In this document: positions 1 through 40,497 of the stretch, piece after piece
Layout: each line of letters opens with the position of its first letter
Position numbering within the stretch: the stretch's first letter is position 1
Assembly (NCBI GenBank): GCA_025435555.1
Contig: JAIWWG010000101.1
Span: 40,201-104,200, forward strand
DNA: 64,000 nucleotides
DNA from: Chytriomyces cf. hyalinus JEL632
Taxonomy: Eukaryota > Chytridiomycota > Chytridiomycetes > Chytridiales > Chytriomycetaceae
Direction: 5' to 3'
Notes under the pieces: model-generated
The model's database searches: none
What the model saw: the letters and a program-made list of their open reading frames with translations, nothing else
Told to the model about the DNA's origin: nothing
Program-made: the position numbers and the translations under genes

Positions 1-2
1 GT

Positions 3-356
3 GTAAACACGATCCAGTCGTCGGTGCTGGACGGCTTGGCGTTTTTCCAGGAGAAATTGAGGAAACCACCGGCAACGATGGAAGACTCTGCGGCTGTGAG
101 TGTGAGGGCAGCGGGGCTAGGGCTTGTTGCAGCCGAGGATGAGGATGTTGTGGAGGGGGCAGTTGTCGAGGGGGAGGAGGAGGCAGCAGCAGCGGAGGCA
201 GTCGTTGAGAAGGAGGACACGACGGACACGATGGGACCCACGCTGTCGTCACAGGGAGGTGGCAGACTCGGAGCGGCCAAGGCAGCAGAAGCAGAAGCGG
301 CAAGAACAAGAAACGCCGTTTGCATTTTTTGGACTCTTTTTTATTTATTGTGTTAG
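3..356 (+). CDS. Possible 3' end of a gene cut by the window edge
   Basis: One frame is open from the window start to a TAG at 354-356. Its first 25 codons look coding; it then becomes a Glu/Ala-rich low-complexity run and ends in hydrophobic residues. A good donor (GTGAGTGTGAG) near 97 and an acceptor (TTGTTGCAG) near 130 suggest an intron, and a different downstream frame ends in a basic, KKRR-containing tail. I cannot decide which frame is used and recognise no family. Low confidence. Confidence 0.25.
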   Translation, partial: VNTIQSSVLDGLAFFQEKLRKPPATMEDSAAVSVRAAGLGLVAAEDEDVVEGAVVEGEEEAAAAEAVVEKEDTTDTMGPTLSSQGGGRLGAAKAAEAEAARTRNAVCIFWTLFYLLC

Positions 357-1659
357 ACAGACACTTCGGCAAATAAATATAAAAGCGCGCATTTTGAATT
401 CAGAAAAATAATTTATTGTTTTAATCAATATGTAAAAATTATGCTGATTGAAAAATTTCAAATTGATTACGGCTGCATCCCATGTGCTCTGTATGAGTCT
501 AATGCAGCCAGCTAGCCACCTTGCGCGCAACCTCCCGCTTCTTGACACTCTTGCACGTGGGTGGGGTACATTGTATATATATTTATATATTTACATTTAT
601 ATTTATATTTATATTTATATTTATATATATCCATCCATCCATCCACTGATGCTCGCTGTGTTGAACGTGTGTCGGCTGCCTGGATCAAGCAAGCAAGCAA
701 CGGAGATGTGCACACCCTTATTTTATATTTTTGTTTTTGTTTACAGTTAAATTTGTTAACTCCTGATTTTATTAACAACCACTGAACGCGCGCGACTTTT
801 GAATTTCGTTTCTTGTTTAGAGTACGCGTAGCTTTTAAAGTGAATGAAAAACCGATGAACATGTGCTGTGTGATCGATCAAGAGTTGACCGACTTGACTG
901 CTTGACGAGCGTAGCGGGCTCCGTTGTTGCTACTGTGTGTTCTGCTGCAAAGATGCGGATGACGGCCGGCGTTGACGTGCTGGCTGAGCACCATCTTCAT
1001 AATCACAAGTGACACTAGCACGGATGTAAAACACCATATGGATCATTGCATCCAATCTGACTTGCTATCGTGCCAATGACAGTCACGAGTTCCACCAACT
1101 GCGTCAAAAAAAAAAAACCGCAACACAACATAATGTGTTGTTGGCACACGACATCAAAAGTAGCTACTGGTTTGAAGCTTGGCTGTCTGAAAATGTGTGA
1201 AACACAAAGCAAACTAAAATGCCCACATCGATTGAGGCCAACAAAACAATTGAGATTGTTTCAATAATGCGTATCCAATCTTGAGCAGCCTTTGCCAAAG
1301 GTGGAAATCCTGTTTGCGAGGTGACGAGTGCCACTGCAAACACGATCGCGGGGATAATGACGGCATAAATGACAATGGGTGCCACGATAATAAGGACTTG
1401 GAAGCATTTTGCTACTCAGGCAGATATGGAATAAAGGACGGCAGAACCCGCGCTTCCAGCTATGGATCTAGTAGACTGTCTTGAAAAATGCTTGGATCGA
1501 AACAAAGTGAAACGAACCGGTGTGGGGGTTGTGGATCAACCGAGACTTGCTATCAGTCAAGTGGATGCTCAAAGCTTCAAAGTTGAAGTTGTTGTTGTGG
1601 TTTCTTTTTTTGGAATTGTCGGTTTTATATTTGTTTTGTTTTGATGCATTGGAATTGTC
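357..1659. other. No supported gene; AT-rich spacer
   Basis: Short open frames occur on both strands, but none has a codon pattern, splice structure or family motif worth calling. The stretch holds the AT microsatellite listed separately and short A runs. Confidence 0.5.
572..646. repeat. TATATTTA microsatellite followed by (CCAT)n
   Basis: Alternating TATATTTA-type units run to about 630 and pass directly into four CCAT units (631-646). Confidence 0.9.
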
Positions 1660-2060
1660 AGAAAGTTTTCAAGAATCAATTCGGGGTTGCATTTTTCGGA
1701 ATGTGACCTGCTTTCTTCTTCCCCTTGAGCATGAAATCTTTTGGGATACAAACATTCCCATGGCATTTTTTCCAACTCTGGTTCATGAAGCTAACAAAAA
1801 AATCCTGTGGTTTCCCTCCCCACGCGTGAGTCTAATACGACAATGAAGCTGGTTTTCAAACGAGACACTGAAGCGAAAGGCGCCAAAAGTTGCCTCCATA
1901 GAGTATTCAACTCATCCATGGTTGCGGTTTTTGTCGACCTGCCAAACGGCTTGCGTCAAGCGCGCGATCCCCAGTGGTGATGTAAAAATAAGACACTGAA
2001 GGTATTGAAATGAAGGGGGGGTTGGATGGCTGCAAAAAGAAGACTCGTTTTATATGAGGT
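1660..2060 (-). pseudogene. Decayed third copy of the 3.3/5.3 kb repeat family
   Basis: Read on the minus strand, this stretch follows the same order of sequence as the two good copies at 3271-3760 and 5257-5747, but with many substitutions and indels. Matching landmarks include the CTTCTTCCCCTTGAGCAT segment near 1715, the GGTTTTTGTCGACC segment near 1927 and the GGATGGCTGCAAAAAGAAGACT segment near 2023. Translated pieces still resemble the family (a YITTG stretch where the good copies have YITAG), but frame is lost several times. Similarity was judged by eye. Confidence 0.6.
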
Positions 2061-2309
2061 ACCCAATTTGTTTGAAAAAGATGTGGCAGCGTGGTTCCTT
2101 TTGCGGCAAAGTCACAAATGAAATTGGGAGTTTGCAGACGTAATGTCTGCTTTGGATATGGATATTGAAAGACATGTATTCCATTTTTCTGGTAGGTGCT
2201 AACATGCAGGGGCTGTACGAGTCAAGCCGCTTGTAGATAATGATGGATCCATTACTGAGATTGCAAAAACTGGCATTGATTTTACCCCCATTTCCTTGGC
2301 CGCCTATAC

Positions 2310-2502
2310 ACGCGTTGAAATACGTGGACTCGTTCACGCGACCCCGGACACGGCCTCGAACAAAAACTGTCGGGATTTGTGTTTCAGTGCATCCCCGATT
2401 TGAATTAACCCGCATTTTGACGAGAGCAGCAGCAAAAGTTGGGGCTGGAACCTCACAAAGTAGGGATCGTCTGGCCCGGGTTGCAAGCAAAAGTTATCAC
2501 AG
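2310..2502. repeat. Dispersed repeat B, copy 1
   Basis: Matches 6785-7015 over most of its length, with landmarks such as ATACGTGGACTCGTTC, CCGATTTGAATT and the TCTGGCCCGGG segment. On the minus strand both copies encode the peptide CLQPGPDDPYFVRFQ, so an exon of an unknown gene may lie inside the repeat. No complete gene can be built around it. Confidence 0.7.
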
Positions 2503-3220
2503 AGACAACTGAACCATAAATGGTGTATTAACACTTTTATAAACTTGCACGTGTTGCCCACGCATTGCCACTCCTCAAACGAGCTTCAAGTAGGTAACCC
2601 CGTCGACACGAGAAAATCGCCAACCCGCCTCGTTTATCTTCTAGTGTGCCGCTGGAAACGAGGAACAACCCGGCCCTGGCCCGTTTTGCTTTGTTTGTTT
2701 GACCCGCTTTTGTCACCTTTTAAAAATTTGCCAAGTCATGCGGGGTTAGAAAAACACTTCAAACTGGCGACGAACCCGAAGCTCGCCAGCGAGAAGATCG
2801 AAGTGACCCCCATGCTGTACGCTGCGGTTCTCCTTCACGCATCCCACTTTCCCAACCTGGTCGGCAAGCACGATCTGGACAGTCGAAGAATGATGCGCAA
2901 ACACTGGTCCAACGCAACCAATGGTTCAGCTGAAGCGTCCGGAAGCTCCATCCGATGAAGCTCATATATCTTCATTGGTCGAATAGCTTACCCGAATGAA
3001 CCATTGAGGAGGCGAACACAGCGGTGACGGCGTTATTCAGTGCACCTCGGAAAAGGCCACAGCCATCCAGGATGAAACGGATACTACTAAGCATAATCAT
3101 TGACGCCAAGAAGCCGGAAACGAAGATCTGTCCGAGTGCAATGTATTTATTATGCTTTTATACAACCAAATCAACACGCTCGAAAGGCTCACCAGCATTA
3201 TATATTAAGCCATGGCTGAT
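2503..3220. other. No supported gene between repeats
   Basis: Only short frames on either strand. A plus-strand frame (2545-2958) is open but has no recognisable domain, and its antisense is equally open. Nothing further can be supported. Confidence 0.4.
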
Positions 3221-4054
3221 TCACATCTTGAAAGCGTGTTTAATGCGGCTCAACTGCGGAGTGAATTGCACCTCATTTGTCTCCACATCCGACTGCACTT
3301 CCTGCCTGTGACGCAATGCCTCTGGAATCGTCGCTGATTTATTCCATGCAATGTGACCCGCTTTCTTCATCCCCTTGAGCATCAGTTCGTTCAGGATGTC
3401 CGCATTCCCAGCATAATGCAATTTTCGAGCTCGATTTACGCACCCTGCGACAAAATCCAGTGCTTCCCTCCCGCGGCACGCCCAATACCGTTTGAAACTG
3501 GATTCGACGAGATATTGAAGGAGTGAAGCCACTGTTGTTCCGTCATATTCTACGTATCCTGGGTGGGTTTTTGGACCGCCGAATGGCTTCGGCGACGCAG
3601 GTTGGAACGCAAGTCCAGCAGTGATATATATAAGCCGACTTGGGGATACTTTGGAATTTGAAAAGAAGGACTGGATGGCTGAAGACGACTTTTTTATAAT
3701 GGAAGGTCTGCTCTTCTCGGATTCGCAAATTGTGACGGTCAGGCTGCCGGATGGAACATCATCGGTCATGAGAAGGATGCTTTGCTGATGCGTGTATATC
3801 ATTATGCGGTCGACATTAACAGCAGGCTGGATTGGGGGTTGGGCCATTTCTGAGACCAAGTCGGTTGTCAAAGTCTGCATTACTAGCGGAGAGCTGTTTG
3901 AAAGACGGGGATGACTGGAGAGCTCGCCTAACAACTTACCGCTTCTGGGATGGTGGTTTGCAGTCATATTTTGGAAAGATGGCAGGGGGTGCCCTGTGAG
4001 CAGAAAGTCCCCGTTAAATGCGAAGCAATGGGAGGTTACGACGACTTCAACCAC
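3221..4054 (-). CDS. Unknown repeat-family protein, copy 1
   Basis: Open frame of 277 codons, no family recognised. A more likely start than the first Met is the internal Met just before the QPPIQP segment (about 3847), since the codons upstream show no match to copy 2. The last ~160 codons are almost identical, at DNA level, to the second copy 2 kb away. Just upstream of that block the DNA differs, but the protein pattern is kept (IYT..QS..L.....DVP.GSLTV.ICESEKSRP). Conserved pieces include SPSRLIYITAGLAFQPASP and KRYWACRGREALDFVAG. No signal peptide or membrane segment. It may be one exon of a larger gene. Confidence 0.45.
   Translation of the reverse strand: MVEVVVTSHCFAFNGDFLLTGHPLPSFQNMTANHHPRSGKLLGELSSHPRLSNSSPLVMQTLTTDLVSEMAQPPIQPAVNVDRIMIYTHQQSILLMTDDVPSGSLTVTICESEKSRPSIIKKSSSAIQSFFSNSKVSPSRLIYITAGLAFQPASPKPFGGPKTHPGYVEYDGTTVASLLQYLVESSFKRYWACRGREALDFVAGCVNRARKLHYAGNADILNELMLKGMKKAGHIAWNKSATIPEALRHRQEVQSDVETNEVQFTPQLSRIKHAFKM
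3271..3760. repeat. 490 bp near-identical direct repeat, copy 1
   Basis: Same orientation as 5257-5747, with long stretches identical by eye. Differences are concentrated at the ends (e.g. GCTGATTTATTCCATGCAATG here against GCCAAAGTATTCCACCCAATG in copy 2). Confidence 0.9.
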
Positions 4055-5132
4055 GGCATAGACTCTTCTATACCTTTGTCACTCTGCCCAGTCGTCGTGC
4101 GAGTCGGTCAAGCGTTGTTGTTCACAGGGCAGATTTTGAATATCAAAGTCATTGGTAAAATGTGTATTTCGAGTGTTGGAACCGTGTGAACCAAAACCGC
4201 GCTTTCTGTGTTACTGCACCACCCATAGTACTGAATCTTCGCATGCGTGATATGCGGTTGTGGTTGCCATTCTCCCTGGGCGCACTTACCTTCTAAAATA
4301 CGCGTCCACCTGCTGAGGATGTCTATTTATCCACAAAGGACCTCTGTGTGCATCGAGGACGGAAAGCAGCATGCTCTTCAAAAGCGAATTCATTCGAAAG
4401 TTCAAGAGTTTCACGAACCAATACCTTGATCGCCTCCCGCTATCAAGATCATAAACCATGCCACGTCTGTCGACTGACATCAGCCACGTGAACTGGCCTG
4501 ATCCTGTCGCTGCCACCCTATGAGAGTCAATATATTGATAAGGTAGCCTGCGATAACGCTGGGGTAGAATCTTTTCCGATTCGCCACGGGTTTATGGCTT
4601 TCTAACAATGCGGTGGTGCAATTATGTACTTACAGATTCATTGCCGATACTGGCTGACTGCATGCTAAGCTGACATATATCTCGACTCCAAGACCCATAG
4701 AGCAGGACCCCCAGGACTTTATCGAATCCGAACTGGTGTTTAAAAGCCCGTCGAACGATATGTCGTATATCCATCATCAATATGCGTGAGAGAACTCGCA
4801 CATTGCAGATTCGAAGCATAGAGCTGCGAAGTGAACCTAAAATTGGCAATGAGCTTTCACATTTACCGCCCGCCCATTCAAGGCGCGATCGAAGATAACG
4901 CTTTGTCCTGGACATGCATCCATCGCACGCTGATTTGACCTGGCGCGTCAATTCGATTGGACGCTCTGTCCGTCGTATTATGGTATAATTGGATAATAGC
5001 AGCCACTGACAAGAACTCTGCCGCACTGTCGTCAGTCATTGACAGTTACCTCCAAAGAATTTCTTGCGGCATTTTCGGACTCATGATTCTCATGTGCACA
5101 GCAGGTGTGCCGCAACTTTAGCGCCAACATAT
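4055..5132 (-). other. Gene remnants with splice-like sites, not joinable
   Basis: On the minus strand, coding-looking stretches occur at about 5026-4634, 4516-4289 and 4226-4152, with consensus donors (GTAAGTAC at 4633, GTAAGTGC near 4288) and an acceptor (CTCATAG) near 4518. The first pair does not join in phase, so I do not call an intact gene. It may be a decayed member of the neighbouring family or an unrelated gene with an unseen exon. Confidence 0.35.
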
Positions 5133-6008
5133 TCAGGGAAGCATGCAAAGTGCGGCTATCACTGGACGAATTCTCTCTGATTTCATGAAAGAGAAGTGGA
5201 ACGCGAAGATGGAATGTGGAAGTCGACTTCGGGGAGAATCATCCGAAGAGAATCGCCCCTCATCTGTCTCCACATCCGACTGCACTTCCTTCTTGTGACG
5301 CAATGTCTCTGGAATCGTCGCCAAAGTATTCCACCCAATGTGACCCGCTTTCTTCATCCCCTTGAGCATCAGTTCGTTCAGGATGTCCGCATTCCCAGCA
5401 TAATGCAATTTTCGAGCTCGATTTACGCACCCAGCGACAAAATCCAGTGCTTCCCTCCCGCGGCACGCCCAATACCGTTTGAAACTGGATTCGACGAGAT
5501 ATTGAAGGAGTGAAGCCACTGTTGTTCCGTCATATTCTACGTATCCTGGGTGGGTTTTTGGACCGCCGAATGGCTTCGGCGACGCAGGTTGGAACGCAAG
5601 TCCAGCAGTGATATATATAAGCCGACTTGGGGATACTTTGGAATTTGAAAAGAAGGACTGGATGGCTGAAGACGACTTTTTTATAATGGAAGGTCTGCTC
5701 TTCTCGGATTCGCAAATTGAGACGGTCAGGCTGCCGCATGGAACATCGTGGGAGAATCGAAGTACGCTCTGAGGACGGGTGTAGATTATAAAGCGGTCAG
5801 CTTGGAAGGCGGATTTGGTTGCGAATTTTGACGCATCTGAACGTAATAGTATCGACAGTGGATCCAACATGTGAACGTTAGTGCAATGGCGATGGCGATT
5901 CTTGAGTATCGCGATGAAAACGTACCGCTCGTAGTGGGGATGTCTGCAGCCATGGTTTTCATGGATGTTGGAGTGCTTGCGGCTAAAGACTGGGATAAAT
6001 GCGAGCAA
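5133..6008 (-). CDS. Unknown repeat-family protein, copy 2
   Basis: Open frame of 291 codons, partner of the frame at 3221-4054. The central ~150 codons are nearly identical. The amino-terminal part shows the diverged but similar pattern (DRFIIYT.PQSVL...HDVPCGSLTVSICESEKSRP). The carboxy end differs from copy 1 after the DVET segment, where the DNA identity stops. No recognised domain. Whether either copy is expressed is unknown; the long open frames and the protein-level similarity outside the identical block argue for past or present coding function. Confidence 0.45.
   Translation of the reverse strand: MLAFIPVFSRKHSNIHENHGCRHPHYERYVFIAILKNRHRHCTNVHMLDPLSILLRSDASKFATKSAFQADRFIIYTRPQSVLRFSHDVPCGSLTVSICESEKSRPSIIKKSSSAIQSFFSNSKVSPSRLIYITAGLAFQPASPKPFGGPKTHPGYVEYDGTTVASLLQYLVESSFKRYWACRGREALDFVAGCVNRARKLHYAGNADILNELMLKGMKKAGHIGWNTLATIPETLRHKKEVQSDVETDEGRFSSDDSPRSRLPHSIFAFHFSFMKSERIRPVIAALCMLP
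5257..5747. repeat. 490 bp near-identical direct repeat, copy 2
   Basis: Second copy of the 3271-3760 block, about 1.98 kb downstream in the same orientation. Confidence 0.9.
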
Positions 6009-6784
6009 GTGTCGGTGAGTCTCTTCGTAACCTTTACATAAGATATCGTTTTCAAGTTGGGGAGCGTGACGAACTTGTTAGAGCCGCCTCTGGAAGGGGC
6101 GATCCGTGTCCATTTTGCACTTGAGTTTGCTGGTGTAAAATCTTTGCACATGATTTGGTTCCAAAAAACTTTGCAAAGAAAAGGTGGTTGACACGTTTTC
6201 CACGCGCATTTGCGATTCGATATTCGCGCAACTTTCCTTGTTGGCCCATCCTCCCTCCGTAGATGTGTGCCGGAGCATATGCGTCAGCTGCCGAAGCCAT
6301 CCTTCTTATCGTATGGCGGCAGTTTGATTCAGTTCGTCCTCTCAAAATTCAAAACTGCGTGGGAACCAGGACGACAGAGGATCGGAATATACATATATTG
6401 TTACTAAATGTTTTCTGGCTATTAAGGTGTGGGAACTCCATGCGAAAATAAAGATACGCGCATTGTTTTCTGTTCGAAAAACCTCAAGATTTCGAAGCAA
6501 ACGGCGACATAAAGTGTTCACGTTTGATCCTTGCGAAGCATCCAACCAAATGCAGGTGGTCCATAAGCAGTAGAAGGGGTAGTTTGTTTAATTTTGAAAA
6601 AAGGGGGGCAATCTGATAAAGCGGAAGAAGGACAGCCATTGAACTACTAAGACCACGAACGTGGCTTTTTAGGATTACGACTTGAAGAAAAGGAAACGAA
6701 AAACAGATCTGCGAGAAGGAAAATAACCAGTGTTACCTGCCATTGCAACAACCGAGCAGCTTTTCGATTCATCCTTGATTGAAT
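6009..6784. other. No supported gene
   Basis: Overlapping frames of under 100 codons on both strands, no motifs, no convincing splice pairs. Confidence 0.4.
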
Positions 6785-7015
6785 ACACGCTGAAATACGT
6801 GGACTCGTTCGCGCGACCACCGCAGGTGAGACAGTTGTTATCGGGGCATGGTCTCGAACAAAATCTGTCGGGGACTTGTTTCAGAGCATCTCCGATTTGA
6901 ATTGACTCGCATTTTTTTTTTCATTTTGACGAGCAGCTGCAAAAGTTGGCGGGGGATACTTGGAACCTCACAAAGTAAGGATCATCTGGCCCGGGCTGCA
7001 AGCAAATGTTTACAC
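6785..7015. repeat. Dispersed repeat B, copy 2
   Basis: Second copy of 2310-2502, with extra inserted bases (a CCGCAGGTGAGACAG segment near 6821 and a T-run near 6913). The shared minus-strand peptide CLQPGPDDPYFVRFQ is intact here too. Confidence 0.7.
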
Positions 7016-7781
7016 AAATGTCAGCGGCGAAATACGGCATCGTGTAGGCCCACGCGCGATCTTGTTGGTCTTCAAAGCATCCTGTGTCGGGCACTTGTTT
7101 GTGATTTAAATGGCGCGAAAGTACATGCCCCGCTGGCACACTACCTTGCACAATGAATGCAAAGTGAAAGCCAATTAGAATGAGAGGAGAGCGCCGCAGC
7201 CAGGCTGGGAGGTAAGTCATGTATGCTCGAAGCGCCATCTCGTACTCGGAAAACCCAGATTCGCAGTGTCCAATTTTCGAAAGCTGTGGCTGGTCATCCT
7301 GGCCGAATGATCTGAGGAGGGAGGGCGGTTCTCATCTCCTGCAAACCCCAGTAGCAGCTTCTGCTTTGTCTTATTGAAAGTCTTTCTGTAAAAAACCTTG
7401 TTGCCACTATGACTAAAATCTCTTTCTCCTGGGAATATTTCCACAGCTTTCGCACTTGGAGATTCCTGTAGATGGAGGAGTGATGCGGACTGGACCTGCT
7501 TGTATGAAAAGAACCTTCCATGCCTCGCTGCTTCGACTTCGATGATGATGGATGGCATTGCTAACGTTTTCAAAAATAGTTTTCTTCCATTACGGGGAAA
7601 ACGCGTGCATCACAGTATGACTGACCATACTGTACCACCAAATAAACAAGTAATGTGCCTGGGTCCGTAACCCACATTCATTTCCATCAGCTGCCACAAA
7701 AAAAAAAGAAAAGAAAGGACGTGCACATGCAGCCACTGCTGCTACTGTTGACGAATGAAAGAAAAGAATCTTCGCAGCCAT
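7016..7781. other. No supported gene; one unknown open frame
   Basis: A minus-strand frame of 118 codons (7217-7573) has no recognised domain, no signal peptide and no conserved neighbour. It is noted, not called. Confidence 0.35.
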
Positions 7782-8257
7782 TCAAACTGACGCCGTATGC
7801 TTCTCCACAAACTGCTTCACAAACTCCTCATTCCTCAGCCCAACAAACGTTTCCACCAACGCACCGTCCCGAAACACACCCACAGTCGGCAACGACGCAA
7901 TCCCGTACTCGGCTGCCGTCTTTACAGCTTCATCCACATTCACTTTCACGAGAAACGTTTTTGGTGCAGGTTGCTGCGTTTGGATTGATTTCTTGAGGAT
8001 CGGTGCGAGCATGCGGCATGGACCGCACCAGCTGTTTTTTAATGAATGCACGAGGCAAGCGGTTAGTTCCGAGATTTGGTGTGTTTATGGGTTGATTACT
8101 CTGCGTAAAAGTCGACCACGACTGGCGTGGACCCGGCCAGTGCCAGTGTCTGTTTAAAGTCCGCGTCGGATCGTTCGACAACCGTTCCGAGCAATGCACC
8201 GACGGCAGAGGAGGAGGGCTTTGTTGAAAGGCTGCGTTTAAAGATTGTCTGGAGCAT
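7782..8257 (-). CDS. TRX3: Mitochondrial thioredoxin
   Basis: Small disulfide reductase, 135 aa, from exons 8257-8100 and 8031-7782 (68 nt intron, GTAATC...AACAG, phase kept). The active-site WCGPC (Cys55, Cys58) follows the VVVDFYAD strand, and SLPTVGVF carries the cis-proline. The first ~16 residues (MLQTIFKRSLSTKP) are basic, hydroxylated and free of acids, as in mitochondrial presequences, and make the chain longer than cytosolic thioredoxins (~105 aa). The expected role is reducing peroxiredoxins and other matrix proteins with NADPH via thioredoxin reductase. The start is the first Met upstream of the fold. It lies 154 bp downstream of INTS4 on the same strand. Confidence 0.93.
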
Positions 8258-8411
8258 TTCAAATATTTTCTTTGGATAAAAGCGGTTTATATATATCCCC
8301 CCTGAAGCTTTTCATGTCAGCTGCGAAGGTGCCGAAGCTGGATCTGAAGCAGGTTTCTATACCCTCCATAATAACCTCATTCGGATCGAAGTACTCATCT
8401 GCTTCTATCAC

Positions 8412-11400
8412 TCAGTTCATGCTGCGCATGCAAGTTCTCTCCCTGTATCGGTACTTCGTTCTAGATGAACAACGCAATCGAATCTCACACAGACCCATCA
8501 CCCCCGTAATCCAATCAGAAACATCCATCGCAGCCTCAAATCCGTCAAAAACACATCCGAACGCCATTTCATTCGCGACTGGGCACGCGCTGATTTCAAC
8601 CAATCTCGTTCCATCCAAGATCCTGTAAAAACAACATTCCATTTCGAACACAATTCCTCGTATTTATCGATGTGCACATACATTGCACGCATATATATAT
8701 ATTTTTTACTCGCAACAGGAATCCATCAAATACCTGTTATCAAAAGGAAAAGCCGAATACCACAACCTCCTCTCGAACCTGCACTTGAGCAAAAATACAA
8801 GCGAAACAACCGATATTATTACTGAGCAAGCGGGTTCCAATACGGATACCACGTCTCATCCTTCTGCAACACACTCGCACACGTTGAATCATGGCAAACG
8901 GCGCGGGTGAATAAAGCCGATGTCGGGCGGAGCGTCCATTCGTCAAACATTGAAGCGGGGAGGGTGGATGCGTCATGGGACTGGATGAGCTTGCATTTCA
9001 CGTGCTTGGAGTCTGTGTAGATGGTGGGGAAGAAGAGAATGGAATTATTAAAACAATAAACCCATCACCAGGGGGTCTTCCTTCACACGCACCTCCCAAA
9101 ACAAGTTTTGTCGAAAAAGAAAATCGCGCCTCATATGTCTCAACGGGTTCGAGACACTCAGAGTCAAGCGGCACGACAATCTGCTTCAAATTGGACAACT
9201 GCCAAATGCAAAATAAACTCTTGTCAGTTTAACAAGGAGGACAATCTTGTTAAGGTTGAAATACCTCAACAAGTACTGCAACACTGCCATCCTTCCAACT
9301 CCCACCAGATCGCCGCCAATTTTGCACGCTCCCTTCAAACTGAACAGGTACTGGGATATATTGAGCGCATTCGAGAGTTGCCGGCAACCCGTGTTCAACT
9401 GTGCAAGTGACTGTCCCGTTGAAGAAACGAACCCATCGAGCAACTTCAATTTTCGGGAGTTTATAGCTCGATATATAGGTTTTCAAAATTTCTAAATGGA
9501 CTGCACTGGTATCTGATGTGATGGGGGGTATCGCGGCAGTCTCTTTTTTGATTTTGTTGATAAGCTGCACGTGTTCCTGACTTGTGTTGGAAAAAAAGGT
9601 CAACCTTCAAAGAATGGATGGGCAAGTGAACAAACAATATACCTGTTGAGATACTCCAAACCACCATTAACCCCTTTCACCGCTGCAAAAGCAGCGCCCG
9701 CCTGCGCAAGGACCCCCAACTCCAGCAAACAACGCAACGTGCTCACCTCCAACCCCAAAAACACAGACAACAGCGCTCGCGTGAGGTTAAATAAACTGAA
9801 ACAAGTCCGCGAGATTTCGGCACACTGTTCGATGCAAGTTGAAGTGAAAGATCGGGTTTCGGTGGTTTGGAATACAAGCGATTGGATGGTTGCAGTGAGC
9901 TTGAAAGCTTGAATGCAGCCTTTGGCGAATACGGCCATGTGCATGTCGGGTTCCAAACGACAGATTTTATGCAATTGTCTGGATGAGAAAAAAAAGACTT
10001 TCAGCAAAACAAAAAAAAGGGGGGGAGCACCCGAGGTGGTAACTTTTTCGCACCTGCCAAATCCATCCAACATCTCAATACATGCACGAAATTCGAGCGC
10101 CGTCAAAAGATCTTGAGCATCGCGTGTGACTGAATTGAACGTTTCGCAAACAAAATCCATATTCGAGAGTGTTGTCATGGAAGTGGGGTTCATCAATTCG
10201 CTTGGTGCTTGGCCATGGTCCATGGGATGGTCAAAGTCCTTTTTTGGGGATAATCTCAAGTGAGTTGGCGGGGGGGGGGGGGGGGGGGGGGGATGAAGTG
10301 ATGGACGACAATCCTCACCTCCATCTTTGGGAAACATTGGGGATATTTTGCATTCAGGAAATACACTTGCCGGAATGTGTAGTTGGGCATGGATTCAAGG
10401 ATTATAGGGTGAGAAAACCCGGCATTGAAAATGAGGATCAAGTTTGCAATGTCTGAGTTTTTTGGAAATCAAAAGGTTGGGTTGGTCAGCCTTTCACTGT
10501 TTGTCATTGATATATTTGTCAGTGTCTCACGTGTTAAGCTGTCCAGGTTGACTTCTTGGGGTAAATAACGGTTATCAAGCTTCAACAGTCGATCCTTGTA
10601 TTCCTCTGTTTTTTAAAAGTGAGTAGGCAAATTGGGTGAATTCGGCGAAAGAAAAAAAAAGAAAAAGAAATCCACACTACCCACGTATCCAGGATGATTC
10701 ATGCCCAAGTCTCGAAAGCATACTAAAATCTTGGGTAAATCGCCGGGAAAGCGTTTCAAATTTCGATACAAGTGCATAATGACGCGTTTCAGGGAATCCA
10801 GGTCAACGAGTCGAAACAGTCTGCGCAACACATGAGTTCATTTTAAACACCATCTGATATGGATCATTTTACCCAAGGAGATCATATCCCAAGTGCCGCA
10901 TGTTTAGATTTACTGCATCAAGAGCCAGGAGCATGGTTGTTAATTGCATGACATTGAGAATGAGTGGAAAATGCGTTGCGATGCGTTTGATGTTTGTGAT
11001 TGCGGCAACGCGGACCGAAAACATTTCGTCGTTGAACATGTCTGGGTTTTTTTTTTTTTTTTGGCTTAGTCATAAAATCGACAATATGGACAATGAAATA
11101 GTCAGCGCACCAACAAGACAGTCCAGAGCTGAAGAGGCAAATGCAGGTGACTTTGTTGCAAGTGTGATTGTGCAGAGCGAGTCTGTAAAAGTAAATTCGG
11201 CATCGATGTAAATAAATAAATAAACAAATGGAAAATAAATAGATTACCGACTGCCGCCTTTCGCACAAGTTCGAATTCGTCTTCGCAGCCATGCACAAAG
11301 GCTCCGCATGCAGCTGTTGGCATGCGCTGCTGTTTCGGGTTTTTAGGTTCGGACTTTGTCAGAGACTGTTTCAGCATTTCCATGCCCCCTTTCGACCAAT

Positions 11401-11591
11401 CTGAATGCGCCAGTTTATAGAATGCCTTTGCGCGATCGACTGGATTTGCGCTTGCGATTGCCGCGATGGAGCAGTGGGCAAAGTCCATCTGTTTACGAGG
11501 TGTTTACAAAGTGAAAATAAATATAAATAAATAAATAAATAAATAAATAGGGAACAATATTCACCCCCAAATCACGTCCGAATCTGTCCAT
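8412..11591 (-). CDS. INTS4: Integrator complex subunit 4 (INTS4-like), 14 exons
   Basis: HEAT-repeat scaffold of the Integrator cleavage module, which in animals, with INTS9/INTS11, cuts snRNA 3' ends and paused transcripts. Exons (high to low): 11591-11565, 11488-11248, 11182-11111, 11041-10873, 10820-10681, 10605-10531, 10452-10319, 10238-10054, 9978-9643, 9580-9265, 9198-9093, 9012-8823, 8778-8734, 8622-8412. All junctions keep phase; 748 aa. Family matches are CGAFVHGCEDEFELVRKAAV, DMFNDEMFSVR and ANLILIFNAGF, each close to the animal protein. Compared with human (963 aa), about the first 400 residues are absent: an in-frame stop lies shortly upstream of the start and the divergent regulator gene begins at 11655/11781. 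The last three exons have no clear animal counterpart. A (G)24 tract lies in intron 7. Confidence 0.85.
10269..10292. repeat. (G)24 homopolymer in INTS4 intron
   Basis: Twenty-four uninterrupted G on the plus strand (C on the transcribed sense strand), about 30 nt from the acceptor side of the intron between exons 7 and 8. The length is likely to be unreliable in sequencing. Confidence 0.95.
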
Positions 11592-11780
11592 TTCAGGTGC
11601 GTATTTATCGCCATACTTTCTTTCCGATTTGTCTCACTTTGGCCTCTGCAAAACATGCTTCTTCCGCTCTCTCAACGTGTTGCAAAAGGAAAAACTCGGT
11701 TCCAATTCACAGATAATTTTTTGCAAACAAAACGTGAAAATTTTGCCAAAGAGCACAACCACAACTCTACTTCGAATCGA
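11592..11780. promoter_or_regulatory. Divergent promoter between INTS4 and the five-cluster regulator
   Basis: INTS4 starts at 11591 (minus) and the regulator at 11781 (plus; an earlier in-frame ATG is at 11655), so both promoters share at most 189 bp. No clear TATA box seen. Confidence 0.5.
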
Positions 11781-14700
11781 ATGGACCCAGAAGCACCCGA
11801 CAAAGAACTTGAGGCAGCGCAAACGATCCTGATGATGATGGAGGTCGGGGCGGAGAGAGAGCCCGGCAACGACGGGCCCTCCGGCACCGGCGGTGAGTCA
11901 TCCGGGTCGGCGCTTGGATTGCGGCCACGCGTGAAGCCGTGCGAGGGTTGCAAGCGGAGGAGGAAGCGGTGTGATGCGGTGCGACCCGTCTGCGGGACGT
12001 GTGCCAAGCTGCGAGTGTCGTGCGAGTGGACTCCTGAGCATTCTTCCGGATTGGTGTCCACTATTGCCGCACACGGTGAGTATTTTCCGGACACAGTTTG
12101 CTTGATTCTCTTTTTTTCGCATTTCCCCGCTTTCGGCTCTTTGTACCCGTTTCTGACGTGGGATGCCCGCTTTCGATCTGTGTCTGCAAATTCCCTTCTC
12201 CATCTTCACCTGCCTTCGAAAAATTTTTGCTGTCTGAAAAAGAAAAAACGCCTCCTTTTTTCAGTAATACTTTTCTTCTTCATTTTCCACCCCCTTCTAT
12301 CTTGATGTCTTTCTGTTTTTCCCTTTTTTCTTCCTCTGATTTTCGCTCTTTTTTTCCCTTTTTTTTCCCTTTTTTTTCCCTTTTTTTTCCTTCTTTTTTT
12401 TTCATTTATTTCACCCACTCACTCACTCACTCACTCACTTACACTCACAACCAGACTCAGCGCAACGCGCGGAATCACCATGTGAATCATGCCACCTGGA
12501 TAAAACCCATTGCGATCAAACATTCCCAGTCTGCACCCCATGTCTAGGCAAACCCAACCAATGCAAGTATCCGACGCCAACCATATCTGAAAACACGACC
12601 CCATCTTCCCCAAGTCCTTCCGCAACCAGCAGCCTCGCTGTAGCACCTCAAACAGACAAACCAACAAACAACATTCAGCCAACCCAAATCCAGCAGCAAA
12701 TCACTCAGCACCGGACAAAACCAAGCTGCTCAACTTGTCGAACATTTAACCGCGAATGCAACGCGGCGCGTCCTTCCTGCTCATCCTGTATCGCGCACAA
12801 CACTCCGGGAACCTGTGAATACCGTGGCAGAAGGCGCAAGGATCCGCGGTTGATGAGTTGTGCACGGTGTCAGCGTCTTCATTTAAAATGCGACAATGCA
12901 AGACCCTCCTGTGGAGAGTGTTCGAAAAGAGGTCGGGACGGGGCGGCCGGATGTCAATATGCAAGACACGATCCTGTTGCCACCATTGGGAGTGGTGGTC
13001 CGTCTCTCATCTCAATGGAAACAGAAGAGGCAAAAATAGAAAGGAAAATGAGCTTTGGAAGCGATGTTTCACCGCAGTCCTTGGAGTCGGGCAGTGTCGT
13101 TGCAATTGAGGAAGGTTTTCGCAACGTTCAGATGGACGTTGCAGAACCAGAGCAGGAAAATGAGCAAAGTACATCCAGTTCAAGTGCATGCGCCATGGAA
13201 GCGCATACGTCTGCTATGGACTCACAAGTCCAGCGACGAAACGACGAGCAATTGGAAGGACATGATCACCAGCCTCAGTATCCGAGGTACAATGACGCAG
13301 GTCCGAAAAAAGCAGGCCCTGTTGGAGAGTCAGGAGATGCATTGATTGCTGGATCTCGAGCTGTGATTCAGTCACTTTTCACGGACGCACCTGCGGCACA
13401 ACAACCGACTGAAAAGAGCTTACACACTGATGGTGGAGGAGGTAGAAAAACACTCCGCGCAATATCCTCAGGAGAAGACAGTGCATCCAACTCGGAAGGC
13501 AACGGTGGGGATGACAACAACGCTGGAAAGGAAGGAAATGCCAGCGGCGACGATTCATCCTCATCTCAAGAGCGGCATCATCGACACAACCAACACACAT
13601 TGCACGTTCAACGCCAGCAGAACAAAGAACAAGCTCAGCGTGTGCAAGAACGGCGAGATAAAAAGCACGAGTTGGAGCAACATCACCAAGTCATGATTCA
13701 ACAACGCGTCGAGCAACAAATGACGGATCAGCAAGGAAAGGAAGTTGCTGACGAGTCTCCTTCTAATGGGCAGCAAGTGCAAAATCCGTTCCATCACCAT
13801 CACCATCACTACTATCATCATCACCATTATTCGAATGATGGATCCATCGAACAAGATCAGCCGGAGCAGCAGCAGCATCTAACTCAACAATACATGAACG
13901 AAACCTCTCCCTCAACGGTGTTGGCTTCACCTCGAGTGGAATCATATCCTGTCCATCCGATCTACCATCCGACCCAGGAAGCCCAACAACAATATCAACA
14001 ACGTCAACACCAACAATATCAAGAACAGCTGCAATACCAGCATCAACAACAACAGCGGAATCAACAATTTCAACATCCGCAGGCGCTTTCACAATATGGA
14101 AGCCATTATTACCAACAACAATACGACCATGGGCAACTTCAACAACAGCAGCAACAGCAGAATCATCAACATCAACAGATGGCGCAGCAGCAGCGTCAGT
14201 ATCAACAACAACCTTCAACCGACATGCAGCAATCTCAGCAACAACAACAGGGTCAACATCATCACCACCATGTCTACTACCACCAAGTAGCCTCTGCTCC
14301 GTTGGGAAGATTCACATCATCTGCGCCATCAGCACCAACTACTACGCAATCAGTTCCTTCTGCAGCATCCCAAAAAACTGTTTCAAAGCCAACGAAATCA
14401 GTTGCATCAGCGGCGAAACCACCAGTCGCTCAACCCGCCGCAGCAAACTTGGCCTCAAAAACGCGTATCGCAAGCTGCTGGACTTGCTACAAAAAGAAGG
14501 TGAAATGTGACCGTTCTCGGCCGCGATGTGGTTTCTGTCACGCGCGGGGACTCGCATGTGAATACCCAAGTCCGAAAGCGGGTGGTGGTGGTGGTGGTGA
14601 TGAAATCTTGGGTGCTGCCGAAATTATTACACCCAGTGTAACGATTGCTCATCATCAGTCGGCTGAAAAATCGAGGGTATCCACTGATTTGCGAGGTCAG

Positions 14701-15259
14701 CCGCCTGCGCCTGGTGAGAGAGAGAGATGCTTATTTCCGTTGTTTTTTTATTGGTTGATTTTTGATTTCTAATTTTATTTTTTTTTCCCCCCACAAATTT
14801 GTGTTCCAATCAACAGCTGCTGCTGCCGCTCCTTCATCCACACCCGCACATCCAACCATCGACACCAAACCGATTGCCGACCCTAAACCATCGAAAAACT
14901 CATTCTCAAATCTCTTGCCTACTGGATCCGTGCCGTCTCCTGCTGAAGGTAGCACTTTAAGCGGAAGCTTTGTCCCATCTCCGTCCCACCACCTACGAGC
15001 ATTTTCGAACGTGCTCGAAGAAGGATGGACACCGAGTCCCGTTCCAGATGGTGATTTCTCGACACCGAAACATGTACATCAGCAGCAGCGTGGCGGTAGT
15101 AGCAGTAGCAATAGGAATTCAAGCACTCGTGTAGGTGCAGCAGCAGCAGTTGATGCCAAGGGTGTGGCCATGAATGTCACGTATGCGGAAGTGTTGAAGG
15201 CTGGGTTGTTGGGTGGGGGATTGCAGTCGAGAAGTCGGAGTTTGGGAAAAAATGAGTGA
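11781..15259 (+). CDS. Transcription factor with five Zn2Cys6 clusters
   Basis: Exons 11781-12075, 12455-14713, 14817-15259; 900 aa, all junctions in phase. Five separate Gal4-type binuclear zinc clusters are readable: residues 54-81 (CEGCKRRRKRC...), 108-135 (CESCHLDKTHC...), 190-219 (CSTCRTFNREC...), 234-265 (CARCQRLHLKC...) and 773-800 (CWTCYKKKVKC...). Each has all six cysteines in C-x2-C-x6-C-x6-C-x2-C-x(6-10)-C order. Four lie in the first third and one near the end; between them is a long Gln/His-rich, probably disordered region (about residues 430-690). Typical fungal members have one cluster plus a fungal-specific TF domain; no such domain is seen. Expected role is nuclear sequence-specific DNA binding; targets unknown. 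An upstream in-frame ATG at 11655 would add 42 residues. The first intron (379 nt) is unusually long. Confidence 0.9.
12076..12454 (+). other. Long pyrimidine-rich intron of the five-cluster regulator
   Basis: 379 nt against 50-90 nt for most introns here. It contains repeated T(6-8)CCC units (about 12350-12397) and then (ACTC)n (about 12415-12440) directly before the CACAACCAG acceptor. The GTGAGT donor and CAG acceptor are good and the frame is kept, so it is an intron rather than a gene boundary. Confidence 0.8.
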
Positions 15260-16105
15260 CTTGTGGCTTTGGGGTACCAGATGATGGAAGCCAGCATTTA
15301 CTGGGAAAAAAAAAGGGGGGTGAGTGCCAAACAGGGGAGGAGGTGTGGGAGGATGGAAAAGTGCATAGAAACAAGTCCGTTGGTGGGGTGTTGTGTGTTG
15401 TGTTATAGAGGTTGGTTTGTGTGAGAAATGCTCCCAAAATCGAAAGTCTCCCGCGCGCGTATTTGTCGAAATTTTTCGATGTCTCGAAAGGAATCATTTC
15501 CCGAAAGTCCCATTGAAATTTATTCGGAAGTTGCGTTACATTAGCTGGATTGTTTTTCCCGGGCGTGTTTTGTGCTTGTGAACACAAAAAAATTGTCAGT
15601 GCGTATATTAATGGTTTGGAGATTGCTTGTTATTTCTTTTATTTTTCATTCTCGTTGAGGACTTGTATCGTTGTGTACCATATACCCCCCCTCCTTCCCC
15701 TGTTATTGGCACCAGGTCTTAACATGTGGTGGTGTGCTTTTTTTTTGTTTTGTTGTTCTTATTTCGTTGAGGAATAAATTTGTACGTTGCGGCTATGAAT
15801 GAATGCATGAGAGTACTCTGAAGCCAGATGGATTGTTCCTCAGATCGATCTGATGCTTACATGGATGGCATCTTTCCCGTGGCGGACTGACTGCATAAAC
15901 ATCATTTCTGAAAGAAACTCAACTCGTCCAATGAGTGCCTTAAAGGGCGACAAATACGCGCTGTTTGGAAAGGGTAAATCTCACGCTTTGCGTACTTCAA
16001 AAGTAGATGAAGAATATATTCATTGTTCAAGATGCAAGCTCAAAAGTGTAAAAGTGTAAATATTAAAATGAAAAAATAAATAAATACAGTTATAATCACA
16101 ATTGG
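15260..16105. other. Intergenic, no gene seen
   Basis: 3' flank of the regulator and downstream spacer. Short frames only; an AAATAAATAAAT-type run near 16072-16086 could serve as poly(A) signal. Confidence 0.5.
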
Positions 16106-16507
16106 TCATTTCCCTCTCCCCAATCGCTTCTCAACCCTTTGCACAAGTCCGCGACTCCAAAACCCAACCGCAGATGACACCATCCACCAAACAATCATGA
16201 TCAGTGCATTAAGAGAGTCATACACCCGCCGCAGAGCAGGCTTTGGCGCCGTGCACACCTTCCACGGCTCTGCGTAGCAGTAGTCCATAGACCGGAACAA
16301 GGGTATCGCGGATGTTCGCGAGAACTGGGTTGCTGAGATGGTGAATGGAGGCATGGCGGACTCAAAGTCTGAAAACGGGTCCGAAGACACGACGTGATGT
16401 AGGAGATCGACGTGTGGTGGCATATCCCGTGCGGAGATGGGAGAGGAGCATACGACTAGCAAGAGAAGCGAGATGTGTCTGAGGGAGACGGATGATGATG
16501 ATGGCAT
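16106..16507 (-). CDS. Small secretory-pathway protein, unknown function
   Basis: Single-exon frame of 133 aa starting at the ATG at 16507. The first 26 residues form a classic signal peptide: hydroxyl-rich start, SLLLLVVC core and small residues before ARD. A second hydrophobic stretch (IMIVWWMVSSAVGFW) near the C-terminus could anchor it in a membrane, leaving a basic tail. Two Cys flank an acidic/aromatic centre (YCYAEPWKVC). No family recognised. It lies tail-to-tail with the upstream regulator. Confidence is moderate because nothing but composition supports it. Confidence 0.5.
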   Translation of the reverse strand: MPSSSSVSLRHISLLLLVVCSSPISARDMPPHVDLLHHVVSSDPFSDFESAMPPFTISATQFSRTSAIPLFRSMDYCYAEPWKVCTAPKPALRRVYDSLNALIMIVWWMVSSAVGFWSRGLVQRVEKRLGRGK

Positions 16508-17058
16508 TCTTTGCTTCGGAATTTCGTTGGGGAAAGGACCCAAAAAACCAAGCATTCCGAAAATTGAAGGTACCCCCCCCTGATAAGAAACCCTGTTTTT
16601 ATTTCACGCATCAAATGTTATCCCGTTGCTCACTCCGACGGCGGTCACAGAGGAACCTGACTGAATGTCGGCATCGGCAGAGTGTTTGATGAGAGAGAGT
16701 GCGTGTTTGAGAGTGAGAAGACATTGTGCCTCCGCTTGTTGGGCCAGTGCTCGAAGTCAGTCTTTGTCAGCATTGTAAGCGTCGGTTCTGTCGCTTCAGG
16801 CAGAATGTCTCTCGTTGTTTGTTTGCACCCGCGTCAAGAATAACACAAGTCTTAAAAAGGGATTCGATCGATTGCCGCATTTGAAATTCCCACAACTTCC
16901 CGCAAAATAGCCTCGTGTTCTCTCGGCCCGCCCGTTAACAGCAGCTCGCACTTTAAGCCCGGCAGGACCATGGTAGCAGCAGTGGCAGCACCAAATCCAG
17001 CAATAAAGACAGCAAAAAAGAAAGAAAACAAAAGTGAAAAAAAGAGAAAAAAACAAAA
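16508..17058. other. Divergent intergenic region
   Basis: Between the small secreted protein (minus) and the zinc regulator (plus). The 3' end is A-rich; an acceptor-like TTTGTTTCAG at about 17066-17075 leaves open a 5' intron in the regulator gene. No other gene seen. Confidence 0.4.
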
Positions 17059-18850
17059 ATGCAATATTTGTTTCAGAATTTGTCGCCGTTTCCCAAGCAA
17101 CAACCACCGCACAAGAGTCAGCCGCAAGACTGGATGCAACCAACACATTCACTGTCCGCAGAGTACGGAAGCAGCTCAGACCAGGAGCGGGAGGCCGTCG
17201 AGGCCATGCTCAACTTTCACCGCTGCTCCCAGTCCCCACCACATCGCATCAGTCACGGCGAGGCCGGCGATTCCTACCCCGAGGCCCGGAGTGCAGCCCC
17301 AATATCAGCGGGGATGCCGCTGGGAACAAATGGGCCCGCCGAAGTAGATCGGCTGCCCGACGGCGTCGCTGCTGGTTCACTCAAGCGCTTACGCCCCTGC
17401 GACTTGTGCAGGGCCATGAGGAAACGCTGCGAGTTTGAGTCTGGCGAAAATTGCATTCGCTGCACCGAGCGGGGCGAAACTTGTGCGTATGCGGATGAGA
17501 TGCGCAAAAAGTCGAGTCTCTCGGGTGGCACAGCCGAAATGTCTTCATCCTACGACATTCCCACTGTCTCTATGCCTGATGTAAGAGCCATGTCGGACTC
17601 TCCGTACATGCAGCAAGCCATTCTGGCTTCTCTCGACGAGTCTCCGCGCATTGCAAAGACACGCAGGCATGCCGCCTGCACAGCCTGCCACACCAAAAAG
17701 ATAAAATGCGATATGCTCAAGCCATCATGTACGGGATGCTATGAGCGATCCAAAGTGTGCATCTATCCGATTCCGCCTCAAAATGGCGACGGTGAACCTC
17801 GAAAGGCTCACTTTGCCCTTCCAAAAGGCGCATCGCCCGTTATTCCCTCCCAACCGATACCAGCAGAAGCTTCAAATACTGCCAAGGCGGAAGTGTCGGG
17901 ACAATCTTCAGCATCGATCAATCCTTCCTCGTCTGTCGCACTGCGAAATCCTTCACTGGGGCCTGATTCTGGGGACGAATCCATTCATTCAGCAGACAAT
18001 GGATACTATTCAACCGATTCAGCTGCTTCAAGGCTAAATCAAGTTGCGCAGGACCAGTCGCAAATTGACAGCACTTCCGCAATTTCATCTGCAGCACTTG
18101 CCATCGAAAATTTATCGAAACCACAGCTCCCTTCACTTCCTGCAGCCTCCTCCGCTTCTCCGCTTTCATACGATCGCAACCTGTCAAATCCAAGCGACGT
18201 CCACAAGCCCGCACATGAATTTAAGAAATCAGCCAATCAATTCCCACTCTTTCACCCTTCCTTCTTTGAACGCGACCCAAATTTTGTATCCCGTTTCAAA
18301 TCCAAAAAGCAAATCAAGCAGGCTGCCATCACTGCCGCAGCGCTTGCATCGAATCCAGGCAGTCTGTCACTTGCCGACATTGTCCTCGACAAACTACCGC
18401 GAGTCAAACCGGGCATTCGAAAACGAATCAAGTGTGGAAAGTTGTGGATTTTGGACCCGGAGACTGCAGAAAAGGTGTATTTTTGCCCGATTTGTCGCAA
18501 AGATTACACCACTGCAAATGGGCTGAAGGTGATTTTTTCAAGATTTTATGTTTGAATGTTTCCAGACAGCTGATGGCTGCTTTGAAATTTCTTAGTATCA
18601 CTTGAGCTTGCATACGGATTTTCACAACATGCCGCCCGGGTATTATTGGAGCAAAGAATCGGCAACTGAAGATTTGACCAAAGTCTTCCAATGCACTGTA
18701 GAGCCATGTCGAAAAGCATACAGCACACTCGCGGGACTCAAATATCACATGGGAAAAGGCAAACATGGATCTGCGGAGGGCAGGCAAAGTGGGGATGAGG
18801 CGGGAGCAAGCAGTTCGGAAGATGAAGAAGATTTGAACCCGGATGAGTGA
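17059..18850 (+). CDS. Regulator with two Zn2Cys6 clusters and two C2H2 fingers
   Basis: Exons 17059-18528 and 18596-18850; 574 aa, in phase. Zn2Cys6 cluster 1 spans residues 114-142 (CDLCRAMRKRC..., one residue longer than usual between Cys3 and Cys4) and cluster 2 spans 207-234 (CTACHTKKIKC...). The C-terminus has two C2H2 fingers: Cys476/Cys479/His492/His496 (CPICRKDYTTANGLKYH, split by the intron) and Cys523/Cys528/His541/His547 (CTVEPCRKAYSTLAGLKYH). The NGLKYH/AGLKYH pattern resembles the SFP1/JAZF1 finger pair. The middle is Ser/Pro/Ala-rich. It combines two DNA-binding fold types usually found in different proteins. It is the second multi-cluster gene on this strand, 1.8 kb after the first. 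The start is the first Met of the long frame; an upstream exon is possible. Confidence 0.88.
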
Positions 18851-19570
18851 AAAGTGTTTGGAAGAAGGCTCTTTTTCTTTTTTTGGGTTTATTTGGGGGG
18901 TATTCGGTGTTTTTTCTTCTAATTTTGGACACGGCTTTCTTGTTTGATTGACGCGCTTTTATGTATTGTTTTTTTTTCGCAGTTTCCCCTTTTTCACTCG
19001 GAGCTTTTTTATCACTTTCGACTCTTTCTGTCCTGACTTATTCTTCCGACCTGTTTCTGTTTTGACTCATTCGATTGATGGCTGTATATATTTTTAGTCG
19101 CTGTTCTTTAACTCACTCCTTCCAAATAAAGTAACCTTTTCGCAGTCTCAACAAAAAGAAAAGAAAAAAGAAAAAAGAAGAAGGAGGAGAGAGGGTGTTG
19201 AGAACTGGGGACTGTTTGTAGCGAGTGTCGGGTAACGTTCACATGATGCATCAAATGACCTTGTTACGCCCAATGTTTATGCCCTTACAGCTGTGTTAGT
19301 AACGCGTAAGGAATCGTGGGTCATGCCGTGATCCCATCGGCTGTTTTCCGGTGATTGTCATTCAGCGAACGGGCGCAGTCACTTGCTCAACCGCGAGCAT
19401 ATGATTTAAACAAGCCACCCGAAAAAAAGCGGACAAAAAAAAACACTTTGAAATATGGTTGGTGCCCTGATCCCAAAGAAACCAAGGCAACGCTAACCCA
19501 AGCAACCCCCCACCCCATTCCACAGCCCTGCTGCAACATACACAGTCTTGCCGAATGCTCTGACGAGGCA
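18851..19570. other. Intergenic, no gene seen
   Basis: T-rich 3' flank with AATAAA near 19125, then a purine-rich AAAAGAAAAG stretch near 19155. In-frame sequence without an ATG continues upstream of the aminopeptidase start. Confidence 0.5.
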
Positions 19571-40149: not shown

Positions 40150-40497
40150 GCCTGGTTTTATTTTTTGCTTTCGTTTCTTTATTTTAGAAACTCGGCTCAT
40201 AAATCTTCTGAACAAACATGCACAAAGGGAACAGTGAGACCAACGCGTGGATCAACCCCGCTCACAGAGCATCCACGCAATTACAAAGAAAGGCGTTATC
40301 CATCAATGAAAAACAAAGGCAACCAAAGACAGGCACGCGTATCGATCAACTTCGATCAACATCCATCTTCACCAACAAAGCACGGCCCCCGTATCCTTAA
40401 CACGAGCTTGCCCGCGTTGCAAGGTCTCTACCCTCTCAGTGCGAGTCCGTATATTTGGACAAGCAAATTGTGCTTGTCAAAAAAAAAAATTTCCCAA
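40150..40497. promoter_or_regulatory. Divergent promoter, SPF27 / THI6
   Basis: 348 bp between the two start codons. It includes a short A run just upstream of the THI6 ATG. No aptamer-like thiamine riboswitch core was recognised here or in the THI6 introns. Confidence 0.4.

Follow-up and report, generated by a model that had tools for sequence, protein, structure and literature searches.

Gene organization at the locus

The window, by which we mean the whole stretch of 64,000 nucleotides that was analysed (contig C4:40201-104200 of a genome of 37.8 Mb in 242 contigs), contains a predicted three-exon gene encoding five Zn2Cys6 clusters and a neighbouring gene in which two such clusters are combined with two C2H2 fingers. 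The features are listed below; AA denotes residues of the predicted product.

11781-12075, + strand: exon 1, AA 1-98 and the first base of codon 99 (from the translation)
11940-12023, + strand: Zn2Cys6 cluster 1, AA 54-81; residues 15-20 KRRRKR, canonical basic
12076-12454, + strand: intron 1, 379 nt, GTGAGT...pyrimidine tract...CAG, phase 1
12455-14713, + strand: exon 2, 2259 nt, stop-free; first in-frame ATG at 12853
12481-12564, + strand: Zn2Cys6 cluster 2, AA 108-135; residues 15-20 HLDKTH, net charge 0
12727-12816, + strand: Zn2Cys6 cluster 3, AA 190-219; residues 15-20 RTFNRE (Asn18, Glu20); 24 bits
12859-12954, + strand: Zn2Cys6 cluster 4, AA 234-265; residues 15-20 QRLHLK; long last loop
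13657-14469, + strand: Gln/His-rich low-complexity region, about AA 500-770, defined by composition (nucleotide ends from the exon coordinates); putative activation domain or tether
14476-14559, + strand: Zn2Cys6 cluster 5, AA 773-800; residues 15-20 YKKKVK, canonical basic; best Pfam stretch AA 772-806
14714-14816, + strand: intron 2, 103 nt, GTGAGA...CAG
14817-15259, + strand: exon 3, a Ser/Ala/Gly/Pro-rich tail with the stop codon
17059-18850, + strand: neighbouring gene, 574 AA, two Zn2Cys6 clusters (17398-17484 and 17677-17760) and two C2H2 fingers; intron 18529-18595 (67 nt)

Translation of the three exons joined in phase yields 998 AA with no internal stops. An earlier note on this DNA had proposed these in-phase junctions, which the GTGAGT/GTGAGA...CAG introns bear out, and a single reading frame of about 900 residues, of which the single frame stands and the length is corrected to 998 AA. 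An alternative in-frame ATG upstream, at 11655, could extend the N-terminus by 42 AA and would leave the clusters unaffected. The exon 2 frame is free of stops over 752 codons, compared with a mean of 33.3 and a minimum of 18 stops in 500 base-shuffled copies, and the other two plus-strand frames of this exon contain 16 and 23 stops. Codon usage, a weak test trained on six frames of the window (three with a Pfam match, two without and one unscanned), scored exon 1 best in its own frame, and exon 2, and likewise exon 3, slightly under one minus-strand frame; the stretch with clusters 2 and 3 was not set apart, and the score lends little support to exons 2 and 3.

Intron 1 contains simple sequence and is longer than the other two modelled introns (103 and 67 nt). 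Reading on through it, the frame of exon 1 remains open to 12305, and its retention would give a one-cluster product. The exon 2 frame has no ATG before 12853, which lies 3′ of clusters 2 and 3, and hence these two clusters need exon 1, joined by the splice. A single gene encoding one five-cluster chain is the better reading of this predicted gene, in agreement with the earlier claim that it is not two genes joined across a bad splice.

Five zinc clusters in one predicted chain

The six cysteines are present in all five clusters (C-x2-C-x6-C-x5..12-C-x2-C-x6..8-C), the last loop of cluster 4 being 10 residues long and thus outside the 6-8 range, and clusters 1, 2, 3 and 5 also fit the narrower C-x2-C-x6-C-x6-C-x2-C-x6..8-C. 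Every ligand cysteine is intact (30/30), at a non-cysteine identity among the five clusters that averages 18% (range 7-30%). The 998-AA product matches PF00172 in five stretches (E 8e-28; 96.7 bits against a gathering threshold of 21), and each cluster scored singly reaches 24.0-38.2 bits; no other Pfam family was matched at E≤1, and a search of the two raw frames against the NCBIfam families returned none. A stricter six-cysteine pattern, which misses cluster 4, did not occur in 100 block-shuffled windows, nor in 2000 shuffles of the protein, for which the shuffled translation had intron 2 one base off. The pattern and the Pfam stretches together confirm five complete clusters in one chain, as had been noted earlier, and the arrangement described then is also found: four clusters lie N-terminally (AA 54-265), the fifth follows after a gap of 507 AA, and the region in between, at about AA 500-770, is rich in Gln (27%) and His (11%). 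Clusters 3 and 4 are separated by 14 AA.

A profile of the seven clusters of the window, i.e. these five and the two of the neighbouring gene, retrieved 18 different sequences from the PDB (E≤0.01), including Hap1/Cyp1, Lac9, Gal4, Ppr1 and Leu3, and Gal4, Hap1, Ppr1, Lac9 and Leu3 share with the clusters described here the six-cysteine pattern and a proline shortly before Cys4. AlphaFold2, run on clusters 2-4 alone and with the seven-cluster alignment, gave mean pLDDT values of 44.5 and 54.3, which are too low for judging the fold. In a crude heptad scan of the protein no coiled coil was seen directly after a cluster; the best windows had 4 of 8 a/d positions occupied, at AA 336-339 and at AA 760, the last of which overlaps cluster 5, and the shuffle control (132 of 2000 reaching 4) came from another stretch, AA 505-566, and is hence not a proper control. 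The protein lacks the Fungal_trans or middle homology domain (PF04082), which the genome matches at 13 other places, none of them on contig C4.

Residues at the DNA-contact positions

The recognition residues of Gal4 lie between Cys2 and Cys3 and comprise Lys17/Lys18 and Lys20; positions 15-20 of the present clusters are those that we take to correspond in Gal4 numbering. For comparison we used 51 clusters found outside the five-cluster gene by a pattern scan of 31 stretches of the genome (294,145 bases, the window included), excluding matches with more than nine cysteines (low complexity) and four overlaps straddling two clusters. Among these, position 18 is Lys, Arg or His in 48/51 and position 20 is Lys or Arg in 45/51, both holding in 43/51. 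Clusters 1, 4 and 5 have such residues at both positions, cluster 4 by way of His18 and Lys20, whereas clusters 2 and 3 do not: cluster 2 has kept Lys18 and carries Asp17 and His20, and cluster 3 departs at positions 18 and 20.

The net charge of residues 15-20 is 0, 1 and 2 in clusters 2, 3 and 4, respectively, against a mean of 3.04 in the 51 comparison clusters (p 0.006 by the Mann-Whitney test, and 0.011 when only the 35 distinct 6-mers are counted), where the p-values serve as a guide only, clusters 2-4 having been grouped after their residues were seen and the clusters being related, with kinship uncorrected. A net charge of 0 is found in 1/51 of the other clusters, a charge of 1 in 3/51 and a charge of at most 2 in 14/51, and His18, which is reportedly present in yeast Put3 as well, in 17/51. 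Given the last two frequencies, cluster 4 is unremarkable when taken alone and may bind DNA. As clusters 2 and 3 lack the residue pair that most of the other clusters possess, clusters 1 and 5, and perhaps 4, look like the readers, and DNA is probably read by only some of the five. The earlier suggestion that the clusters of one chain could read several half-sites would thus hold for clusters 1 and 5 with their canonical basic residues, is borderline for cluster 4, and is not supported for clusters 2 and 3.

Multi-cluster chains elsewhere in the genome

The genome contains matches to chitin synthase (PF01644) and to a radial-spoke protein (PF04712), a combination that, judged from these homologies, marks a chytrid-like fungus with flagellated cells. 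We scored the best 106 candidates of a genome-wide PF00172 scan (E≤1), and 97 of them reached the cut-off of 21 bits, distributed over 77 open frames. One cluster was found in 59 of these frames, two in 17 and four in a single frame, namely exon 2 of the five-cluster gene; frames were counted exon by exon, such that the count is too low for chains whose clusters are spread over different exons or are themselves split. The 51 clusters of the pattern scan fall into 16 frames with two and 19 frames with one.

The earlier note had stated that absence of the multi-cluster arrangement from close relatives would speak against its reading; we looked for the arrangement among the paralogues that this genome itself contains. 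Frames with two clusters are frequent among them, and the best 106 candidates included no further frame exceeding two, the gene borders at contig C182 and contig C7 aside. About five clusters are present at C182:229.5-233.0 kb, four of them seemingly split by introns, and these probably sit in two-cluster genes; contig C7 has a similar row of four PF00172 matches, and it is possible that a second chain with at least three clusters exists at C182 or C7. Two other candidates for a four-cluster gene, at C4:35.6-37.9 kb and C186:208.1-210.2 kb, were rejected as consisting each of two two-cluster frames, a judgement based on a second cluster that ends four residues 5′ of an in-frame stop and on a lone two-cluster copy on contig C111.

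The two-cluster frames allowed seven paralogue pairs to be compared (13 frames, one used twice). Within the clusters pN/pS was 0-0.36, as compared with 0.17-0.68 outside clusters and linkers and 0-0.68 in the linkers, ratios that are rough since pS is high, near saturation, in several pairs; in all seven pairs each cluster had a lower pN than the remainder of its frame, clusters and linker excluded. The ligand cysteines were kept in 12/12 positions in five pairs, in 13/13 in another and in 11/12 in the weakest pair (C177:717110 / C79:240143), which also had a first-cluster pN/pS of 0.36. In view of this conservation across two-cluster paralogues, multi-cluster chains look like a maintained trait of the genome.

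Origin of the five-cluster chain

Using AA 1-443 and the C-terminal 289 AA as queries, we did not find a paralogue of the whole chain in the genome. The matches obtained were short and covered clusters and their flanks, with the exception of a marginal match on contig C68 (E 9.5e-4) that lies outside the clusters. A partly syntenic segment is common to contigs C4 and C186, two two-cluster frames forming one of its ends and the neighbouring gene the other. The first-exon frame of the neighbouring gene is 77.5% identical to a frame on C186 (blastp, 503 AA). Within the C4 copy of this segment lies the five-cluster gene, for which the matches found on C186 were limited to single clusters with flanking sequence.

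Each of the five clusters had a better best score against clusters of other genes (84-107) than against its four sisters (67-90), a comparison that is only suggestive, since one best value is drawn from 51 clusters and the other from 4. Clusters 3 and 4 are similar to the tandem pair on C162/C45, whose gap is 13 AA against 14 here, clusters 1 and 2 resemble the C221 pair, and cluster 5 resembles the last cluster of C186:209076; tandem double modules with gaps of 11-13 AA occur in six other frames. These scores and resemblances point to assembly from modules rather than to internal duplication, and the five look as if drawn from modules used elsewhere in the genome, although kinship is poorly resolved by 28-32 residues. 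A search with clusters 2-4 of bacterial, archaeal and viral collections yielded 46 pattern matches in genome contigs and 11 in viral contigs, none of which was confirmed, and it is uninformative on fungi.

Discussion

We propose, with a confidence that is about evenly balanced, that the five-cluster gene encodes a bivalent Gal4-type activator with two strong DNA readers, clusters 1 and 5, connected by a Gln/His-rich tether. The proposal starts from features that can be read in the DNA, namely five clusters, a predicted gene model that is in phase, conserved two-cluster paralogues and a scan without a second frame of more than two clusters. The product would be a Gal4-type (Zn2Cys6) transcription factor whose five binuclear clusters were assembled from modules of this fungus, where they are often used in twos. 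Clusters 1 and 5, which may each grip a CGG-like half-site, are approximately 690 residues apart, and the Gln/His-rich stretch between them is probably disordered; being far apart and flexibly connected, they would allow one chain to span two half-sites, either holding them at a flexible distance or bridging two separate sites. The Gln-rich stretch could then serve as an activation region that is brought along by the chain itself. Clusters 2-4 are most likely zinc-folded with little base recognition, forming a structural or protein-contact module in which cluster 4 is possibly a weak reader.

The alternatives differ from this proposal partly in the role assigned to clusters 2-4. If all clusters, or at least four of them, contact DNA, the chain could, as the earlier note envisaged, read a whole row of half-sites with no need to dimerise, in the manner of polydactyl C2H2 proteins; intact zinc ligands throughout, a gap between clusters 3 and 4 that is like that of the tandem modules, Lys18 in cluster 2 and the His18 and Lys20 of cluster 4 are consistent with such a polyvalent reader, but Asn18 and Glu20 in cluster 3, Asp17 and His20 in cluster 2 and the rarity of net charges of 0 and 1 among the other clusters make us consider it only tentatively. 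It appears still less probable, and in our opinion doubtful, that clusters 2-4 are purely structural or engaged in protein contacts, and that the protein works as a dimer or in a complex as other Zn2Cys6 factors do. The contact residues do depart in clusters 2 and 3, and less so in 4, and there is no Fungal_trans domain for other functions, yet no cluster was seen to be followed by a coiled coil in the crude heptad scan, and a complex would lack a known partner.

Other alternatives question the gene itself. Two genes may have been misjoined, the first coding for a one-cluster protein that ends within the 379-nt intron and the second lying downstream, which would be in keeping with the length and simple sequence of that intron and with the one-cluster product of its retention; we hold this to be very unlikely, as clusters 2 and 3, with 12/12 cysteines kept, would fall outside any ATG-started protein of the exon 2 frame, the splice signals and phase fit, and clusters 4 and 5 would in any case share a chain. 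Equally concerned with the gene as such is the notion of a functionless fusion that is decaying or was never fixed, for which one may cite the failure to find a second copy, or to find the gene in the partly syntenic segment of C186, and the weak codon-usage signal. With exon 2 free of stops where shuffles predict 33, and with all ligands retained by clusters that otherwise share so few residues, we give this notion hardly any credence.

A review (PMC11087348) describes Zn2Cys6 proteins as having 'only one zinc finger domain', which accords with the statement of the earlier note that fungal factors of this type normally carry one cluster. Most zinc cluster proteins are described as dimerising (PMC5412356), and the single cluster as being often followed by a linker and a coiled coil (PMC11087348, PMC5412356). 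Monomeric binding is considered possible for some of the ordinary members (PMC11087348, PMC5412356). Binding as a monomer is thus not new in itself. The basic recognition stretch of Gal4-type factors is shared here by clusters 1 and 5; in contrast to the one cluster described for them, the present protein has five, lacks Fungal_trans and has the long gap before its last cluster. Chains with two clusters are mentioned in passing for PoZCP55 of Pleurotus (PMC7295025) and for an Alternaria factor cited in PMC10305253, which likewise exceed one Zn2Cys6 cluster but have only two, one being accompanied by septin domains and the other by a transmembrane domain. In the accessible portions of the open-licence literature we found no report of at least three Zn2Cys6 clusters in one protein.

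Closer at hand are the two-cluster frames of the same genome (for example C4:38133, C186:210643, C111:949885, C162/C45, C177/C79 and C221), in which both matches lie in one open frame and are conserved in the pairs tested. They differ from the five-cluster chain in having two clusters instead of five and in being mostly basic at the contact positions, and they match it only in and around the clusters. The class has been described as having one cluster per chain and as consisting mostly of dimers, whereas here about a fifth of the frames (17/77) hold two, conserved in 13 paired frames. The genome may accordingly be viewed as a natural test of whether Zn2Cys6 clusters lend themselves to being combined in series, as C2H2 fingers are, and of the form that the family takes in a lineage outside the much-studied ascomycetes. 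More speculatively, and with considerable reserve, we suggest that this lineage uses Zn2Cys6 clusters as combinable, cis-encoded DNA-reading modules in the way that animals use C2H2 arrays, a good number of genes having two in a chain and the present one five, such that the pairing and spacing of half-sites would be set within the polypeptide and not by dimerisation.

Shelest 2017 (PMC5415576) describes dual-specificity fungal factors and the low proportion of Zn clusters among chytrids. These factors have several DNA-binding domains per chain, as does the five-cluster protein, which differs from them in having domains of one type only. The neighbouring gene, with its two zinc clusters and two C2H2 fingers, is of the dual-specificity kind as presented there (Zn cluster and C2H2; PMC5415576).

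Other zinc cluster frames

Zn2Cys6 clusters recur beside the five-cluster gene and elsewhere in the same genome:

Window 17059-18850, +: Zn2Cys6 and C2H2 gene, next downstream of the five-cluster gene
C4:35.6-38.1 kb (L039): paralogous frames, second cluster near the stop
C186:208.1-210.6 kb (L033): paralogous frames, second cluster near the stop
C111:948.9-949.9 kb (L046): one paralogous frame, second cluster near the stop
C182:229500-233000, - (L052): row of about five Zn2Cys6 clusters

C4:35.6-59.3 kb and C186:208-222 kb (stretches L033, L034 and L039 and window positions 1-19140) are paralogous segments with partial synteny. Tandem two-cluster Zn2Cys6 frames are present in these segments, and the five-cluster gene was seen only in the C4 copy of the two compared. 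The downstream gene, which encodes two Zn2Cys6 clusters and two C2H2 fingers in a single 574-aa chain, has a paralogue in a C186 frame (219862, +; 503 aa at 77.5% identity, blastp).

In five paralogous frames of L039, L033 and L046, an in-frame stop follows the end of the second zinc cluster by four residues, which suggests, from sequence, that this cluster is C-terminal. In the L052 row, introns apparently cut four of the approximately five clusters within the cluster itself. A row of Zn2Cys6 matches at C7:75.6-78.6 kb resembles that on C182.

Other genes and elements in the window

Two minus-strand frames (3221-4078 and 5133-6077) have a near-identical block (SEKSRPSIIKKSSSAIQSFFSNSKV...) in common, perhaps a recent duplication; the former gave no Pfam match at E<=0.001. 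A reverse transcriptase (57272-59272, -; RVT_1, Pfam E 4.7e-16) is perhaps part of a non-LTR element, to which the adjoining frames (55995-57311 and 59681-61918), without Pfam matches, may also belong. At 40078-42299 (+), a thiamine phosphate synthase frame is followed on the same strand by a hydroxyethylthiazole kinase frame, and the two perhaps constitute one bifunctional gene.
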